From contig LGGV01000002.1 in NCBI GenBank assembly GCA_001509095.1, forward strand, positions 1 through 53,988: a DNA stretch of 53,988 nucleotides. The letters are read 5' to 3'. This DNA comes from Synergistales bacterium 58_81 (GTDB lineage: Bacteria > Synergistota > Synergistia > Synergistales > Thermovirgaceae). A program made the position numbers and the translations under genes. The notes beneath the pieces were generated by a model. The model was not told where the DNA came from, made no database searches, and saw nothing but the letters and a program-made list of their open reading frames with translations. This document shows positions 7,546-13,873 of the stretch, in pieces (position 1 is the first letter of the stretch; each line of letters opens with the position of its first letter).

Positions 7546-8100
7546 CTACCTGATGGCCTTCATTAGGTTGTAACCAGCATTGAAGGCCTTTTCGTTCATC
7601 TCCTCGGTCCCCTTGGGAACCCTGGCCAGAATGGCCTTCTTGATGGAATCGGCTTTCATCAGGCCTTCCTTTTCCAGTACCCTGGCAGTGACCCCAAGGG
7701 CCACCATGTTGGTGACGAGTTCCCTCCCGATCTTCTCCCTTGCGGTCTTGACGATGGGAAGCATGAAAACTTCGGCTTCGCTATCGGCGACTGAAGAGAC
7801 GTAGGTATCGTCGACTACGACTACTCCGCCCTTTGCCGTCTGCCCAATGAACTCATCGCAGGATGTCTGGTTGAGGATTATCTGAAGATCCGGTGATGTG
7901 GCTTTGGGGTAATCGATACTGCCCCTTGAGATGACCACTTCCGATTTGGATTTTCCACCTCTTGCCTCGGGACCATAGGCCTGTGTCTGGACCGAGTTCA
8001 GCCCCTCGTAGATAGCCGCGGCCTCTCCGACCACGACAGCGGCCAGAATGACACCCTGCCCGCCGGAACCTGCGAAACGTATCTCGTAGCGATCCCTCAT
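7546..8100 (-). CDS. korC: 2-oxoacid:ferredoxin oxidoreductase subunit gamma
   Basis: Gamma subunit of a 2-oxoacid:ferredoxin oxidoreductase, which oxidatively decarboxylates a 2-oxoacid to the acyl-CoA and reduces ferredoxin. The 184-residue protein has the family N-terminus FAGSGGQGVILAA and the AYGPEARGG motif (about 42-50). Its ATG overlaps the korB stop in TAATG, so the two are translationally coupled. It is the last gene of korDABC and is followed by a strong hairpin. The four-subunit layout favours 2-oxoglutarate or branched-chain 2-oxoacids, but the substrate cannot be read from sequence. Confidence 0.92.
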   Translation of the reverse strand: MRDRYEIRFAGSGGQGVILAAVVVGEAAAIYEGLNSVQTQAYGPEARGGKSKSEVVISRGSIDYPKATSPDLQIILNQTSCDEFIGQTAKGGVVVVDDTYVSSVADSEAEVFMLPIVKTAREKIGRELVTNMVALGVTARVLEKEGLMKADSIKKAILARVPKGTEEMNEKAFNAGYNLMKAIR

Positions 8101-8921
8101 TATTTTCCACCTCCAACCCTCTCGACCAGGCTGCGGTAGAGTTCTGTGTACTCCGGGGCTTCCCTCTTCACGAATTCGCCGGTCACGATCTTGCCTTCAA
8201 GGTCGACCGGGGACATGCTCTGGGCCTTGGCGAGGGGTACGGAGTTGTTCTTGAAGTAGTTAAGGTTGTCCACCGGGGTCCTCCGGTTGTTTTTCCTGCC
8301 GAACTGGGTGTGGCAGCTGGAAATGATCTCGACTACGGAAAAACCCTTGTTGGCTATTCCGTTCTTGATGTACTGCTCGCAAAGGACGGGCTGGGCGATA
8401 GTGGCCCTTGCGACGTAGGTCGCCCCTGCACCCTGGGCAAGCTTGCAGACGTCGAAAGGGGGGTCAATAGCACCGTAGGGAGCCGTGGTGGCCCTGGCAC
8501 CAAGGGGCGTCGTGGGTGAGGCCTGTCCTCCGGTCATACCGTAGATGTTGTTGTTCATCACAACGGCGGTAATGCCGATGTTCCTCCTGCAGGCATGAAT
8601 GAAGTGATTGCCTCCAATAGCAGTACAGTCTCCGTCTCCCATTACATCGACGATGGTCAGCTCAGGGTTGGCCAGTTTGATCCCCGTTGCGAACGCCAGG
8701 GACCTCCCATGGGTGGTATGGATCGTGCAGGAGTCAATATACCCGGGCATTCGGCTTGAACAGCCTATACCTGAGGCTATCACCGTCTCTTCCCTCTTCT
8801 TGCCGGAATCGACCAGGGCCCGAAGGATCGCGTGCATGATGATGCCATGCCCGCAACCAGGGCACCACATGTGAGGGAAAAACCTCTTTCTCAACCAATC
8901 TAGTACTTCAGGGCGGGGCAT
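8100..8921 (-). CDS. korB: 2-oxoacid:ferredoxin oxidoreductase subunit beta (thiamine-diphosphate binding)
   Basis: Carries the thiamine diphosphate site. The 273-residue protein has MWCPGCGHGI (about 18-27, cluster cysteines), the TPP motif GDGDCTAIGGNH (about 95-106) closing at MNNNIYGMTGG, and a further conserved cysteine in FDVCKLAQG. Its ATG overlaps the korA stop by one base. Together with korA, korC and korD it forms a heterotetrameric enzyme feeding ferredoxin during amino-acid fermentation. Confidence 0.94.
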   Translation of the reverse strand: MPRPEVLDWLRKRFFPHMWCPGCGHGIIMHAILRALVDSGKKREETVIASGIGCSSRMPGYIDSCTIHTTHGRSLAFATGIKLANPELTIVDVMGDGDCTAIGGNHFIHACRRNIGITAVVMNNNIYGMTGGQASPTTPLGARATTAPYGAIDPPFDVCKLAQGAGATYVARATIAQPVLCEQYIKNGIANKGFSVVEIISSCHTQFGRKNNRRTPVDNLNYFKNNSVPLAKAQSMSPVDLEGKIVTGEFVKREAPEYTELYRSLVERVGGGK

Positions 8922-10057
8922 TATCTGGCCACCTCCTCGATTTTCTCCAGGATCTCGGAGGGCTGAAAAAGCTCACCGTTGACGAGGCTCATCTGCACCA
9001 TTGCCGCTTTGCCGTGAACAGCTCTCTCTATCTCGTGGACCATCTGCCCGAAGTTCAGCTCAGGTACGATGAGTCTTCCCGCCTTCTCCGCCAGAGACTC
9101 CAGTTCCCTGTCCGGGAAGGGCCATAGGGTCACGGGACGGAAATAGCCTACCTTAAGGCCCTTGTCCCTGGCCTGCCTGACGGCGCTCAAAGCTGTCCGG
9201 GCAACACTACCGTATGCTACGACGATAACATCGGCATCTTCAACGTTCTCCGTCTCGTATTCAACTATCTCGTCCCGGTATGCATTGACCTTGTCCATCA
9301 ACCGGGCGGTCTTCTTCGCGATCTCTTCGGGACAGTTTGTCGGGAACCCCCATTCGTTGTGGGTAAGCCCGGTAATATGCCACCGGTACCCGTCGCCGAA
9401 GGAGGCCATAGGGGGAAGGTTGTCCTCGGGGTCGGGCCTGTAGGGGATGAACTCCTCGGGGCTGCAGGAAGGCCTTTTTCTGTCCACTATGGTAAGGGTC
9501 TCATTGTCGGGGACTATAACCTTCTCTCGCATGTGGCCCAGGACCTCATCGCTCATGATCAGAACAGGCTGCCTGAAACGCTCCGCCATGTTGAAAGCCT
9601 TTATAGTCACTTCGTAACACTCCTGCACCGATGATGGTGCATAGGCAATGGTGGCATGGTCGCCGTGGGTACCCCAACGGGCCTGCATGACATCCTGCTG
9701 GGCGATGGAAGTGGGGAGCCCTGTCGAAGGTCCTCCGCGCATGACGTCTACTACAACTATGGGTATCTCGGCCATGTAGGCAAGCCCCAGGTTTTCCTGT
9801 TTGAGGGAAAAACCGGGACCGGAGGTGGCTGTCATGGACTTGTACCCGGCCACGGCACCACCTATTGTCGCGGCTATACCGGCAATCTCGTCCTCCATCT
9901 GAATAAACCTGCCGTTGTAGACAGGCAGCTCCTCAGCCATTACCTCGGCGATCTCCGATGAAGGGGTTATTGGATAACCCCCGAAAAAACGGCAACCGGC
10001 GGCAATGGCTCCGTAGGCGACAGAAACGTTCCCCTGCCAGAATTCAACCCTGGTCAT
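8921..10057 (-). CDS. korA: 2-oxoacid:ferredoxin oxidoreductase subunit alpha
   Basis: Pyrimidine-binding alpha subunit. The 378-residue protein contains GYPITPSSEIAE (about 27-38), TATSGPGFSLKQE and MRGGPSTGLPT, all hallmarks of the family. ATG at 10057 lies one base after the korD stop; GGGAG is about ten bases upstream. A longer in-frame start inside korD is unlikely because the family begins close to the GN-VAxGA segment. Confidence 0.94.
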   Translation of the reverse strand: MTRVEFWQGNVSVAYGAIAAGCRFFGGYPITPSSEIAEVMAEELPVYNGRFIQMEDEIAGIAATIGGAVAGYKSMTATSGPGFSLKQENLGLAYMAEIPIVVVDVMRGGPSTGLPTSIAQQDVMQARWGTHGDHATIAYAPSSVQECYEVTIKAFNMAERFRQPVLIMSDEVLGHMREKVIVPDNETLTIVDRKRPSCSPEEFIPYRPDPEDNLPPMASFGDGYRWHITGLTHNEWGFPTNCPEEIAKKTARLMDKVNAYRDEIVEYETENVEDADVIVVAYGSVARTALSAVRQARDKGLKVGYFRPVTLWPFPDRELESLAEKAGRLIVPELNFGQMVHEIERAVHGKAAMVQMSLVNGELFQPSEILEKIEEVAR

Positions 10058-10058
10058 C

Positions 10059-10268
10059 CTAAGCACTCCCTTCAACGGTGATAGCCAGGTCGGGGCAGAT
10101 GTTATCACACTGCTTGCAGCCGATGCAGTCTTCCATCCTCTTGGGGGTGGATTTCAGGTTCTCGTCGAAATCGAAAACTTTCTTGGGGCATACGGCCAGG
10201 CACAGTCCACAACCCTTACACCACTGGGAGTTCACTTCAACCGTGAATTTCTTTGGCAAACAACTCAC
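10059..10268 (-). CDS. korD: 2-oxoacid:ferredoxin oxidoreductase delta subunit, 2[4Fe-4S] ferredoxin
   Basis: A 69-residue ferredoxin-like subunit that carries electrons from the TPP site to soluble ferredoxin. It has two CxxCxxCxxxCP motifs: CKGCGLCLAVCP (17-28) and CIGCKQCDNICP (48-59). It is the first gene of korDABC, preceded by AAGGTGAG about seven bases upstream. A 210-base intergenic region separates it from the dehydrogenase operon on its right. Confidence 0.93.
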   Translation of the reverse strand: MSCLPKKFTVEVNSQWCKGCGLCLAVCPKKVFDFDENLKSTPKRMEDCIGCKQCDNICPDLAITVEGSA

Positions 10269-10368
10269 CTTCCTCCGAAACGTTCACATCATGAGATCTT
10301 ACTATCCGGGCCCATTATGCCACCTTGTGAGGTTAGGGACAAGGCATATTGATATCTATATATTGAAT

Positions 10369-10398
10369 ATTGCATTACAAAGCGGAATTTACCGTCAA
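10369..10398 (-). promoter_or_regulatory. Possible promoter of korDABC
   Basis: On the minus strand TTGACG (10393-10398) and TGCAAT (10369-10374) are 18 bases apart in an AT-rich region about 100 bases before korD. The -10 match is weak; a 5' leader of roughly 95 bases would result. Confidence 0.3.
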
Positions 10399-10430: not shown

Positions 10431-10461
10431 CCAGGAGGGGGGCGACCTACCCCCCTCCTGG
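10431..10461 (-). terminator. Strong hairpin at the end of the proline-dehydrogenase-like operon
   Basis: A perfect 12-base-pair stem (10431-10442 with 10450-10461) with a seven-base loop, 20 bases after the stop of the FAD dehydrogenase gene. The bases following on the minus strand (ATCGTCTTGT) are only moderately T-rich. Confidence 0.65.
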
Positions 10462-10480: not shown

Positions 10481-11632
10481 CTAGACTACGGCCGGTTCAA
10501 TAAGAAGCTCCCCTCTTTCGAACCTGCTGTAATGCAGCATACCGATGGGGATCCAGGGTTCCTGGCCAAGTATAAGCTGCGCCAGGAGCTCTCCCGATAT
10601 GGGGCCGAACATGAAACCGTGTCCGGAGTAACCGCAGGAGAGGAAGAAACCCTTGACATTGTCAGCCTCGCAAAGAACTGGCTGACGGTCGGGGGTCATG
10701 TTGTAGAGCCCTGACCACTGCCTGACGACCCTGACCCCTTTGGTCCTTGGAAGGAGCCGCACAAAGGTCCGGGACATCATCTCCAGGAAGTCCCATGAAT
10801 TCCCAAGATCGTAATCCTGGGGATGCCCTTCAGGGCTGCACCCTCCGATGATCGATCCGTGAGGTCTCTGCTGAATGTAGTAGTTCCCCGAAAAGCTCAT
10901 GAGCATGGGAGGGCAGACCCCGGGCTCGACGGGTTCGGTGATCAGGATCTCATGTCTTTCAGAGAGGTTCGGGATCTCCACTCCTGCCATCTTGGCTATG
11001 AACTGGGAGTAGCCCCCTGCGGCGTTGACCACAACAGGTGCGTCGATATCTCCCCTGTTGGTGGCAACTCCGGCCACCCGCCCTGCAACGGTCTTGACAT
11101 CGGTCACTTCAGTGAAGCGCAAAAACTCAACGCCCAGTCTTTTGGCCGCTTCCATGTAGGCAAAGGTCGTAAGGAAGGGATCGGCGTGTCCATCCCTTTC
11201 GTGGAAAGTAAAACCGACAGCATCCTCGGCTGCAAGACCCGGACAGATCTCCTTTGCCTCGTCGTAGGTGACGACCCTGGTATTGATCCCGAGGCTGTTC
11301 TGAAGCTTCATGCTCTTCTGGAGCTGCTCGAATTCGCTGTCCTTGTAGGCCACCATCAGGTAACCGCTCTGGTTCAGGCCGCAATCCATCCCCAGCTCAT
11401 CGTGCAGCTGCTCGAACTTCTCAACCGCAGCAAGCCCGAACCTGCAGTTCATCTCCGTTCCCCACTGGGCCCTGATCCCGGCGCCGCATCTCCCGGTAGA
11501 ACCTGAGCAGATGGTCCCTTTTTCGAGAACAACGATATCCTTGACTCCCATTTTCGCCAGGTTGTAGGCAATGGAGCAGCCCTGTACCCCGGCTCCGATC
11601 ACAACGACATCGGCTGTCCTCCTCCAAAACAT
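10481..11632 (-). CDS. FAD-dependent oxidoreductase, DAO family (proline dehydrogenase beta / HcnC / sarcosine oxidase beta-like)
   Basis: Likely the catalytic subunit that oxidises the amino- or imino-acid C-N bond. The 383-residue protein has the FAD dinucleotide fold VVVIGAGVQG (about 9-18), GSTGRCGAGIRAQWG and a C-terminal CGYSGHGFMFGP motif typical of glycine/sarcosine/D-amino-acid oxidase relatives. Its ATG overlaps the upstream BFD-like gene in TAATG. The operon mates (two Fe-S proteins, a BFD protein and an FAD/NAD protein) indicate a dehydrogenase complex and not an H2O2-forming oxidase. Candidate substrates are L-proline, hydroxyproline, D-amino acids or sarcosine; sequence alone does not decide. 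Confidence 0.85.
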   Translation of the reverse strand: MFWRRTADVVVIGAGVQGCSIAYNLAKMGVKDIVVLEKGTICSGSTGRCGAGIRAQWGTEMNCRFGLAAVEKFEQLHDELGMDCGLNQSGYLMVAYKDSEFEQLQKSMKLQNSLGINTRVVTYDEAKEICPGLAAEDAVGFTFHERDGHADPFLTTFAYMEAAKRLGVEFLRFTEVTDVKTVAGRVAGVATNRGDIDAPVVVNAAGGYSQFIAKMAGVEIPNLSERHEILITEPVEPGVCPPMLMSFSGNYYIQQRPHGSIIGGCSPEGHPQDYDLGNSWDFLEMMSRTFVRLLPRTKGVRVVRQWSGLYNMTPDRQPVLCEADNVKGFFLSCGYSGHGFMFGPISGELLAQLILGQEPWIPIGMLHYSRFERGELLIEPAVV

Positions 11633-11913
11633 TACTTGTCTCCCCCCTCGGCAAGGACCGCCAGTTTGACCGGCTTTGCAGGAGGCCTGAAGGTCCCGGG
11701 GTGAATATCAGCTACAGGCACTTTGGTCTTTGCCGATATTTCCCGGAGGATCATCTCACGACATCCTCTCCCCTGGCACGGTCCCATGCCTACCCGGAGG
11801 ACTCTCTTAAGTTCGTCAAAGGTCTCGTAACCCTTCTCTATCCACTCCCTGATCTCACCCAGGGTGACCTCTTCACAACGGCAGATGATGATATCTTCGT
11901 TCTTTCCGGCCAT
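11632..11913 (-). CDS. BFD-like [2Fe-2S]-binding protein
   Basis: A 93-residue electron-transfer protein. The BFD-like [2Fe-2S] motif is complete: CRC at residues 11-13 and GPCQGRGC at 44-51, giving four cysteine ligands. In HcnB and in opine or octopine dehydrogenases this domain is usually fused to the C-terminus of the FAD/NAD subunit; here it is a separate gene. It begins two bases after the 4Fe-4S gene and overlaps the DAO-family gene by one base. Confidence 0.88.
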   Translation of the reverse strand: MAGKNEDIIICRCEEVTLGEIREWIEKGYETFDELKRVLRVGMGPCQGRGCREMILREISAKTKVPVADIHPGTFRPPAKPVKLAVLAEGGDK

Positions 11914-11915
11914 GA

Positions 11916-12425
11916 CTACTTCACCACCCTGATCGTGCGGATTTCCATCACCTTTGACCTGGGAACCTCGACATGTACGACAATCGTTCTGTCGTGCATG
12001 GGTTCGAGGACCTTTACCACCTTGCCCCTGGATATGGATTCGCCCACCCTGTTCAGGCAGTCCACGGTCTTGCCCTCTTCGGGGACAGGGAGCATTTCGT
12101 AGGGAAGCTTCATCAGCGCATTATCCTCATCGCCCCAGGTCAGGTCGACCACGAAGCAGGCCAGGCCGGGGCAGACCGCCACGCACCTTGCACAGCCTGT
12201 GCACTTTTCGTAGTCGATCTCGGGCTGGTCATTGATATCCTTGAAGGGTTTTACCGCTCCTGTAGGACAGCTGGTATGACAGGGGTTGCAGGGTATCCTC
12301 TGGGGACATTCGATGATGACAAGACCATTCTTCTTGTTCTGCCAGAGGTCCTCAGGGGGTTCAACTGCCCCTTTGCGCGGTTCTACGAGCACCCCGCTGT
12401 TGAAGAGTCTCTCCTTTTCGTTCAA
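11916..12425 (-). CDS. 2[4Fe-4S] ferredoxin-type electron-transfer subunit
   Basis: A 169-residue subunit with two cluster motifs: a first set C-x5-C-x2-C-x3-CP around IPCNPCHTSCP and a second set CTGCARCVAVCP. The C-terminal ~70 residues have no recognised domain. I chose the TTG at 12425, five bases past the upstream stop codon, with a GGGGGG run upstream; a longer frame would overlap the previous gene and gives unconvincing N-terminal sequence. It probably relays electrons between the FAD subunits and ferredoxin. Confidence 0.82.
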   Translation of the reverse strand: MNEKERLFNSGVLVEPRKGAVEPPEDLWQNKKNGLVIIECPQRIPCNPCHTSCPTGAVKPFKDINDQPEIDYEKCTGCARCVAVCPGLACFVVDLTWGDEDNALMKLPYEMLPVPEEGKTVDCLNRVGESISRGKVVKVLEPMHDRTIVVHVEVPRSKVMEIRTIRVVK

Positions 12426-12429
12426 TGTA

Positions 12430-13557
12430 TCACACCCCCCATTCGTTGACAGTGCAGCATTCAAGGCCCTGGCAGATCTTTTGACCAACCTCGCCGCCCC
12501 TGAGGTCCGCAAGTCGTCTCCTGTATTCCTCGAGGCGTTTCGAATGCTCGGAACTGTCGTCCTTTCCGAGAGACCTGGCTACACCAACACCGGCGATCCG
12601 GCCCTCCACCATGGCGGCCGACGCCTCTTCGATACCTGCAGCGTCACCGGCAACCCAGATATCTGGGTGACTGGTCCTCATGAAGAGATCCCTCTGTGCA
12701 ACGTGGCCGCAAAGCTGGGGAACAAATACCATCTCACAACCAGCCTGCCAGAGGAGTTCACAGGTCGGGGTGAGACCAACGGCCATACAGATGATGTCAA
12801 CATCTATCTGGATTTCCTTGCCCACGGGCTGGAACCTGTCGTCTATCTCCTGGATTACCGCCCCGGCGACGACCCTGTCCCCTAGGGCTTCTTTTATGGT
12901 ATGCCTGAGGTAGATCGGGACCCCCATCCTTCTCACCTTGGCGGCGTGAACCCAGTAACCTCCAACCCGGTCCATGGCCTCGACTATGCCTGCGATCTCG
13001 ACACCCGCCTGCATCAGCTGATAACTGACGATAAGACCGATGTTCCCGGCCCCGACCATTAGGACTCTCTTGCCGGGTGCCACTCCGTAAACGTTCATAA
13101 GGGTCTGGACCGCCCCCGCACCATAGACGCCAGGGAGATGATTGTTGGGGAACGGGAGAAGGCGCTCCTGGGCTCCTGTGGCCATAACGATCTTGCCGGG
13201 TTTGATCCTGAAATACTCGTCTTCTCCGATAACACAGGAAACTACCCCGTCCTCCCGGTAAAATCCGGTAGCGGTGCAGTTCATGTGGACCTTGACCCGG
13301 TCCTTGTACCTCTCCAGCTCCTCGAGAAGGATCTCGGAGATCTTGAACCCCCTTGTCCCGGCTCTCTCGTCCTTTGAGCCGAAGAACTTGTGGGTCTGCT
13401 TGATCAGCTGTCCTCCAAGGGCGAGGTCGCTATCCACCAGAGTTACCTGGCATCCCAGCGAGGCCGCTTCAAGGGAGGCGCTGAGACCTGCGGGGCCCCC
13501 TCCGATAACAAGAACTTCTGTCTGCCGCAATCCCTTCACCTTCCCTCTAGTCCGCAT
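12430..13557 (-). CDS. NAD/FAD-dependent oxidoreductase subunit (proline dehydrogenase alpha / HcnB-like)
   Basis: Flavoprotein with two dinucleotide folds: VLVIGGGPAGLSAS near the N-terminus for FAD and VLMVGAGNIGLIVS near residue 165 for NAD(P)H, plus ATGAQERLLPFP and VAGDAAGIEEAS. This is the pyridine nucleotide-disulfide-oxidoreductase-like alpha subunit of dye-linked proline dehydrogenase or HcnB complexes. It lacks the C-terminal BFD domain, which is encoded separately downstream. The start is uncertain: ATG 13557 overlaps the upstream gene by 11 bases, while GTG 13539 and TTG 13530 have better ribosome-binding sites. Confidence 0.87.
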   Translation of the reverse strand: MRTRGKVKGLRQTEVLVIGGGPAGLSASLEAASLGCQVTLVDSDLALGGQLIKQTHKFFGSKDERAGTRGFKISEILLEELERYKDRVKVHMNCTATGFYREDGVVSCVIGEDEYFRIKPGKIVMATGAQERLLPFPNNHLPGVYGAGAVQTLMNVYGVAPGKRVLMVGAGNIGLIVSYQLMQAGVEIAGIVEAMDRVGGYWVHAAKVRRMGVPIYLRHTIKEALGDRVVAGAVIQEIDDRFQPVGKEIQIDVDIICMAVGLTPTCELLWQAGCEMVFVPQLCGHVAQRDLFMRTSHPDIWVAGDAAGIEEASAAMVEGRIAGVGVARSLGKDDSSEHSKRLEEYRRRLADLRGGEVGQKICQGLECCTVNEWGV

Positions 13558-13873
13558 CCATTGCAATGACGCCTTTGCCCCGCTGCGTCTCGACCCGCAT
13601 TCCGGTCTTCAGTGGGGTAACGCAGGTCCGGACGTTCGGAACGCCATCAACGACCATGAAACAGGAAGAGCATTTCCCGATGGCACAGAAGAACCCCCGC
13701 GTCTGCTCTCTCTTGGGGGTAACCCTGTAGATCCTGACCCCGTTCGCGTGAAGGGCGGCGGCTATCGGTTCGCCCTCATAACCCTCCATCTCATCACCAT
13801 CGAAGGTGAACTTGACCTTCTTCCCATGCTTGAACTCGAGAATCGGATGTTTCTCGATCAGATCCATAACCAT
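13547..13873 (-). CDS. [2Fe-2S] ferredoxin-like subunit (HcnA-like)
   Basis: A 108-residue plant-type [2Fe-2S] subunit and first gene of the five-gene operon. It has GEPIAAALHANGV and the ligand set CAIGKCSSC followed by a fourth cysteine in VRTCVTP, as in HcnA and the small subunits of proline or hydroxyproline dehydrogenases. ATG 13873 is preceded by GAGGAGGG at five bases; a longer in-frame start upstream has no such site. It overlaps the FAD/NAD gene. Confidence 0.88.
   Translation of the reverse strand: MVMDLIEKHPILEFKHGKKVKFTFDGDEMEGYEGEPIAAALHANGVRIYRVTPKREQTRGFFCAIGKCSSCFMVVDGVPNVRTCVTPLKTGMRVETQRGKGVIAMDAD

Follow-up and report, generated by a model that had tools for sequence, protein, structure and literature searches.

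Introduction

Anaerobes are best known for using proline as an electron sink, through D-proline reductase. The closest described relatives of the system analysed here are archaeal proline dehydrogenases. The heterotetrameric, dye-linked L-proline dehydrogenase (L-ProDH) of Thermococcus litoralis is encoded in the gene order alpha-gamma-delta-beta (OCC_00347/342/337/332), and its genes were named after pdhA, pdhF, pdhX and pdhB of T. profundus (PMC4364671). In the L-ProDH alpha subunit, the first ~120 residues are the counterpart of a ferredoxin that forms a subunit of its own elsewhere in the family, and the delta subunit resembles the C-terminal ~90 residues of the Pyrococcus horikoshii alpha subunit (PMC4575208). 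The literature searched describes no way in which Synergistota and many Clostridia could oxidise proline without PutA, pyrroline-5-carboxylate (P5C) dehydrogenase or a quinone. Here, we analyse a stretch of 53,988 nucleotides (the window; positions 1 to 53,988 of contig LGGV01000002.1, assembly GCA_001509095.1) from Synergistales bacterium 58_81, whose minus strand carries, from 13873 to 10481, five adjoining genes for flavin and iron-sulphur proteins. We consider it likely, from their content, order and context, that they encode a soluble bacterial L-ProDH complex of the PdhAFXB type in which PdhA is split, and that in most relatives this complex feeds P5C or glutamate semialdehyde (GSA) to an aldehyde:ferredoxin oxidoreductase (AOR).

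Results

In the direction of transcription, the five open reading frames encode a [2Fe-2S] protein (Fer2_4), an FAD/NAD subunit (Pyr_redox_2), a 4Fe-4S protein, a BFD-type [2Fe-2S] protein (SO_alpha_A3) and a FAD protein of the DAO family, each domain being called by Pfam above its curated cut-off (Table 1). All five lie where an earlier note on this DNA had placed them, in the same subunit order, and the tight packing it described is equally apparent, successive junctions being an overlap of 11–20 bases, gaps of 4 and 2 bases, and a 1-base overlap. This set of five genes recurs, generally with its order unchanged, in most of the loci retrieved from Synergistota and from Clostridia (Anaerosolibacter, Alkaliphilus, Geosporobacter, Sedimentibacter and others), and 64 of 147 Synergistota genomes have the 4Fe-4S subunit. 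The closest named relative of the DAO subunit is from a Synergistaceae metagenome-assembled genome (96%), and one from a 'Thermovirgaceae' genome of the same kind is 89% identical. With its recurring gene order, invariant cluster cysteines and invariant nucleotide motif, the array is far beyond chance.

The earlier note also held that every cofactor domain is split into its own gene. This is an overstatement: measured against PdhAFXB, the N-terminal ferredoxin domain is the one part that has newly become a separate gene, and the description does not extend to relatives in general, as the 4Fe-4S and BFD proteins form one chain of ~254 residues in several Clostridia. Fusion of Fer2_4 to the FAD/NAD subunit was not found in the loci examined. 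The hydroxyproline cluster of Bacillus badius, like the array, has two separate small [2Fe-2S] genes, so gene splitting by itself is unremarkable.

Published definitions for this superfamily give C-x4-C-x2-C-x11~12-C and C-x-C...C-x4-C for the two [2Fe-2S] motifs and Arg-X-Trp for flavin mononucleotide (FMN) (PMC4575208), and the array carries the full set of the PdhAFXB type, namely both [2Fe-2S] motifs, a two-cluster 4Fe-4S subunit and Arg-X-Trp, the last as R304-Q-W306 of the DAO subunit. Cluster ligands of the Fer2_4 protein (C-x4-C-x2-C-x12-C) are kept in 50 of 50 relatives, and the protein aligns with residues 8–88 of the alpha chain of P. horikoshii PDH1 (1y56_A), whose cluster ligands are lost. 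The four cysteines of the BFD protein, which aligns with the 1y56_A C-terminus (410–491), are kept in 27 of 27 relatives, with 32 residues between C-x-C and C-x4-C, compared with the 15–20 printed in the same definition. All eight cysteines of the 4Fe-4S subunit are conserved as well (32/32), the first motif, C-x5-C-x2-C-x3-C, having an atypical yet invariant spacing. A predicted model of this subunit (pLDDT 78) gave no match in a fold search of the PDB at E<0.1; its C-terminal half is confidently predicted to be a beta domain. The FAD/NAD subunit has GAGNIG as its second nucleotide motif without exception (60/60), followed after beta-2 by an acidic residue in 54 of the 60, which would be expected for binding of NAD rather than NADP.

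Among solved structures, the beta chain of PDH1 (1y56_B) is the best match to the DAO subunit, at 276 bits and 38.7% identity, against 146 bits and 29% for SoxB and 27–28% identity for opine dehydrogenase beta subunits. Together with the T. litoralis gene order, these values bear out the opinion of the earlier note that the array resembles the L-ProDH of Thermococcales more than HcnABC. The active-site comparison that it proposed leads in the same direction: Met341 is found in 84 of 84 relatives and in 1y56_B, where SoxB has Lys, two Ti-plasmid opine dehydrogenases have Gln and the B. badius hydroxyproline-cluster protein has Ser, and the motifs RCGxGIRxQ(W/F) and SGHGFM are common to the DAO subunit and 1y56_B. 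We take position 341 to align with the sarcosine oxidase Lys near the substrate carboxylate (Lys348 of the monomeric enzyme, MSOX). Besides L-ProDH, only one haloarchaeal protein among the sequences compared has the Met341 signature, and the Met341/RCG combination appears to favour L-proline as substrate. Where the earlier note had named no substrate, this signature and the gene context thus point to proline.

The sarcosine oxidase, HcnABC, D-hydroxyproline dehydrogenase and opine dehydrogenase types were rejected as assignments because of the sequence identities, the residue at position 341 and the layout of the domains. An oxygen-using oxidase of the sarcosine or HcnABC type would have DAO, Pyr_redox, Fer2_4 and BFD domains in common with the array; the Sox alpha folate domain and delta subunit are missing, however, Met stands in place of Lys, BFD is unfused to the FAD subunit, and Synergistota are a phylum of strict anaerobes, all of which makes such an oxidase very improbable.

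A complex of the same architecture could instead act on D-proline, cis-4-hydroxy-D-proline or another secondary amine. Some clusters lie next to racemase-family genes, subunit exchange alters the substrate in this superfamily (PMC4575208), and a paralogous DAO protein (DAO2) in the same genomes speaks of diversification. We nevertheless regard a different substrate as unlikely, given how narrowly the Met341 signature is distributed, the identity of the HypD product, P5C, with the product of L-proline oxidation, and the divergence of the B. badius hydroxyproline cluster, which has Ser at this position and no 2[4Fe-4S] subunit listed. DAO2, which is 41–45% identical to the DAO subunit and has Gln at the Met341 position, lies at three loci (L130 (G000:C46), L128 and L129), divergent from a proline-racemase-family gene with a Cys-Cys pair. 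No alpha or Fe-S genes stand directly beside it there, so DAO2 may borrow those of the five-gene complex or act alone. At L129 (5240–17833), in a relative of the same family, DAO2 and a racemase-family gene are grouped with HypD and its activase, TRAP-type transporter genes, a serine-dehydratase-like gene and an ornithine-cyclodeaminase-family gene, in what looks like a fuller hydroxyproline/proline catabolic island.

In relatives, the gene context of the array points to proline. In many Clostridia, a polyferredoxin, an AOR-family protein of ~720 residues and a ThiS-like protein are encoded 3' of the array, at a distance of a few to ~160 bases in most. The AOR-family protein (PF01314/PF02730) has 1aor as its nearest solved structure (219 bits), with the cluster cysteines aligned. 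Some Synergistota have the order DAO, polyferredoxin (not always called), AOR, ThiS-like protein, HypD activase, HypD, with gaps of −4 to 27 bases from AOR to HypD at L051 and L055; the neighbouring HypD matches the NCBIfam equivalog NF043068 (1167.7 over a cut-off of 1100). Other clusters adjoin proline-racemase-family genes with a Cys-Cys pair. An AOR gene lies beside the array in 17 of 32 Clostridia and 5 of 37 Synergistota loci counted. Across the 147 Synergistota genomes, 48 have both the complex and the proline-linked AOR subtype, 16 the complex only, 9 the AOR only and 74 neither (Fisher p 7e-16); counted by genus, the figures are 27, 5, 1 and 20 (p 8e-9), both p values being inflated because they ignore shared ancestry. 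PutA-type proline dehydrogenase was rejected as a candidate, its TIM-barrel domain (Pro_dh, PF01619) being found in none of 41 genomes and matching none of the five proteins. Upstream of the array, Clostridia often have an NSS transporter and PrdR-like regulators, one of which was tested and scored 805 over 795 for NCBIfam NF041552; in a sigma-54 regulon survey, only prd genes were placed under PrdR (PMC6615313). Directly after the operon of dehydrogenase and AOR genes, four genomes (L077, L078, L081, L084) have proA-proB, which could run in reverse, making ATP from P5C, or be simply biosynthetic.

These arrangements suggest a route in which the FAD of the DAO subunit would oxidise L-proline to P5C, with electrons crossing the FMN between the DAO and FAD/NAD subunits (at Arg-X-Trp) to the second FAD and the three Fe-S proteins. 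Hydrolysis of P5C would give GSA. In most relatives, this would be oxidised to glutamate by a dedicated tungsten AOR with its polyferredoxin, yielding reduced ferredoxin, and HypD would feed P5C from trans-4-hydroxyproline into the same GSA step. Since HypD, L-ProDH and AOR would all meet at one metabolite, P5C/GSA, this is the simplest reading of their operon.

In some Synergistota (L051, L055, L061), the dehydrogenase, AOR and HypD appear to share an operon, which would also suit the reverse reaction, a P5C reductase making proline from HypD-derived P5C with NADH and perhaps bifurcating to ferredoxin. With NADH as the donor, reduction of P5C is energetically downhill, and the window's assembly has no P5CR_dimer match. 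Most complete relatives, however, have an ordinary ProC, the adjoining AOR implies GSA oxidation, and the archaeal homologues are described as dehydrogenases (PMC4364671), so that we give the reverse direction little chance.

Several observations weigh against proline oxidation coupled to AOR, among them the inflation of the co-occurrence statistics by shared ancestry and the 16 Synergistota genomes that have the complex without this AOR subtype. The window's own assembly belongs on this side too, lacking the subtype where 3 of 3 same-genus genomes have it, which could reflect incomplete assembly or genuine loss; and in the window's clade the array is flanked by korDABC and tsa genes, not by proline genes. 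A type-2 opine dehydrogenase is close to archaeal L-ProDH without using proline (PMC4575208), so similarity to L-ProDH alone leaves the substrate unfixed and gene context is needed. Finally, in a tree of the DAO subunit, with long branches and no Thermococcales PdhB, the placement of 1y56_B had no support.

The assembly containing the window (1.33 Mb, 148 contigs, 93% complete) has two glutamate dehydrogenase domains, one proline-racemase-family gene and one HypD gene. Its single match to the aldehyde dehydrogenase family is of the CoA-acylating type, and a P5C dehydrogenase in this genome was rejected on that ground. The HypD gene (L133 (G000:C42), 156–2219) encodes 688 residues, compared with ~785 in the family, with two in-frame gaps, and is a damaged gene, a real shortening or an assembly artefact. 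Behind the array, korDABC encodes a 2-oxoacid:ferredoxin oxidoreductase, probably of the 2-oxoglutarate type; of the 37 Synergistota loci that were counted, 14 have KorA after the array. In this organism, glutamate could pass through glutamate dehydrogenase and KorDABC to succinyl-CoA, and the position of korDABC fits a path from proline through glutamate and 2-oxoglutarate to succinyl-CoA.

Array and korDABC are unlikely to form a single operon, because they are separated by a hairpin and a conserved promoter, and korDABC is probably a separate transcription unit. The hairpin resembles a terminator at the end of the array, and most close relatives have a hairpin of other sequence at the same place 3' of DAO. 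In several relatives the 27-base block TGTAATGCAATATTCAATATATAGATA and the extended −10 promoter (10314–10342) are nearly unchanged, while the neighbouring hairpin varies. The block has a single copy in the window and resembles a site bound by a regulator.

Table 1 Features of the five-gene array and of the adjoining korDABC region (positions in the window).
Feature	Position	Strand	Evidence and remarks
[2Fe-2S] Fer2_4 protein, 108 aa	13547–13873	−	Pfam PF13510, 107 bits; ATG start after GGAGG
FAD/NAD subunit, 378 aa, putative rest of PdhA (alpha)	12430–13566	−	Pyr_redox_2, 131 bits; start may be ATG at 13557
2[4Fe-4S] subunit, PdhF-like (gamma)	11916–12425	−	Fer4_7, 36 bits; TTG start uncertain
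BFD-type [2Fe-2S] subunit, PdhX-like (delta)	11632–11913	−	Fer2_BFD, 49 bits; SO_alpha_A3, 43 bits
DAO-family FAD subunit, PdhB-like (beta); candidate catalytic L-proline dehydrogenase	10481–11632	−	DAO, 257 bits
Perfect 12-bp hairpin immediately 3' of DAO, without U-tract	10431–10461		RNA fold z = −4.4
Conserved korDABC promoter region, TTGTCC-N17-CATAAT preceded by TG	10314–10379	−	Conserved in relatives; includes block TGTAATGCAATATTCAATATATAGATA at 10353–10379
korDABC: korD 10059–10268, korA 8921 to about 10056, korB 8100–8921, korC 7546–8100	7546–10268	−	NCBIfam NF006412, 567 bits over cut-off

The earlier note raised the possibility of electron splitting between NAD and ferredoxin. With textbook potentials of −123 mV for proline and, for a second estimate, −280 mV for NAD, transfer from proline to NAD alone comes to +38 kJ/mol, and transfer from proline plus ferredoxin to NAD to about +3 kJ/mol (E0') or −12 kJ/mol (NAD at −280 mV), which places the latter between near-equilibrium and favourable. 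Proline cannot reduce NAD+ alone, and ferredoxin still less, which excludes splitting for the forward proline reaction and makes that suggestion thermodynamically implausible; for proline, only confurcation or simple mediator-type transfer would seem reasonable.

In confurcation, as in lactate dehydrogenase/Etf, two electrons from proline and two from ferredoxin, reduced by AOR with GSA, would together reduce two NAD+, the 2[4Fe-4S] subunit acting as the ferredoxin port and the FAD/NAD subunit as the NAD port. We put this forward tentatively, as an addition to the L-ProDH assignment. Besides the energetics, it agrees with the invariance of GAGNIG and of all cluster ligands, with the prevalent NAD-type acidic residue, with the absence of any RnfC over cut-off in the window's family and with the adjoining AOR and polyferredoxin in one apparent operon in relatives. 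In addition, the respiratory relatives (D-hydroxyproline dehydrogenase, opine dehydrogenase and hydrogen cyanide (HCN) synthase) and PDH1 are not known to have a 2[4Fe-4S] subunit. Against it stand the NAD of SoxA and the ATP of PDH1, precedents for a nucleotide site that can be purely structural. Nor does the fold help: the FAD/NAD subunit is best matched, by sequence and fold, by SoxA alpha and 1y56_A, with the NfnI large subunit next by fold, and these matches say nothing specific to bifurcation, the likeness to NfnI being common to the whole two-dinucleotide-domain family. No paper on proline with confurcation was found in the part of the literature searched.

Discussion

An L-ProDH linked to AOR and HypD would provide anaerobes with a PutA-free route for the oxidation of proline and hydroxyproline. 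The cluster is a concrete proposal for this route: it offers a substrate, GSA, for a subfamily of tungsten AOR and ties HypD-derived P5C to an energy-yielding oxidation. Collagen-rich waste contains much proline and hydroxyproline, and the cluster also suggests how oxygen-free protein degraders may gain energy from both. In the partial literature searched, we found no papers on proline dehydrogenase with AOR or GSA, which leaves priority unproven. A bolder version, possible though rather doubtful, is a fermentation module in which a split PdhAFXB-type dehydrogenase confurcates onto NAD alongside a dedicated tungsten GSA:ferredoxin oxidoreductase, so that proline would become glutamate with NAD alone, without PutA, quinones or Rnf. 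If true, NAD reduction by confurcation would add a new enzyme family to the few flavin-based coupling systems.

Among known systems, sarcosine oxidase (SoxABDG) has homologous DAO, FAD/NAD and A3 domains, but its alpha subunit is a single chain of ~965 residues with a folate domain, far larger than the FAD/NAD subunit of the array, and its beta subunit differs at position 341. Heterotetrameric sarcosine oxidase also has covalent FMN. D-hydroxyproline dehydrogenase, opine dehydrogenase and HCN synthase (alpha4beta4gamma4) combine, as the array does, DAO and FAD/NAD subunits with a separate small [2Fe-2S] protein and the FMN Arg-X-Trp motif, whereas their BFD domain is usually fused to alpha, a 2[4Fe-4S] subunit is lacking, another residue occupies position 341 and the beta subunits are only 27–28% identical to that of the array.

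PDH1 of P. horikoshii (PH1363/PH1364, PDB 1y56) has a beta chain with the Met341 and RCG signature of the array, and along its alpha chain Fer2-like, FAD and BFD parts follow one another as the corresponding genes do in the array. Unlike the array, PDH1 consists of two subunits, has lost its Fer2 ligands, carries ATP and is without a 2[4Fe-4S] subunit. Closest of all is PdhAFXB of T. profundus and T. litoralis, with the same domains in the same order (Fer2_4 plus FAD/NAD, 2[4Fe-4S], BFD, DAO), a likeness that rests on described subunits and gene order, the sequences compared being those of P. horikoshii 1y56. The T. litoralis genes are clustered with proline racemase and other proline genes (PMC4364671), and some relatives of the array likewise lie near racemase-family genes. 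The PdhAFXB alpha subunit is one chain of ~490 residues with an N-terminal ferredoxin domain, whereas here, and in the relatives examined, Fer2_4 is a gene of its own. From this correspondence of Fer2_4 with the PdhA N-terminus, and from subunits and order matching those of T. litoralis, the array can be read as PdhAFXB with PdhA split in two. It would then be a variant of a known complex that differs from the archaeal one in being bacterial and in being joined, in relatives, to a tungsten AOR and HypD, and it is this link that appears to be new.

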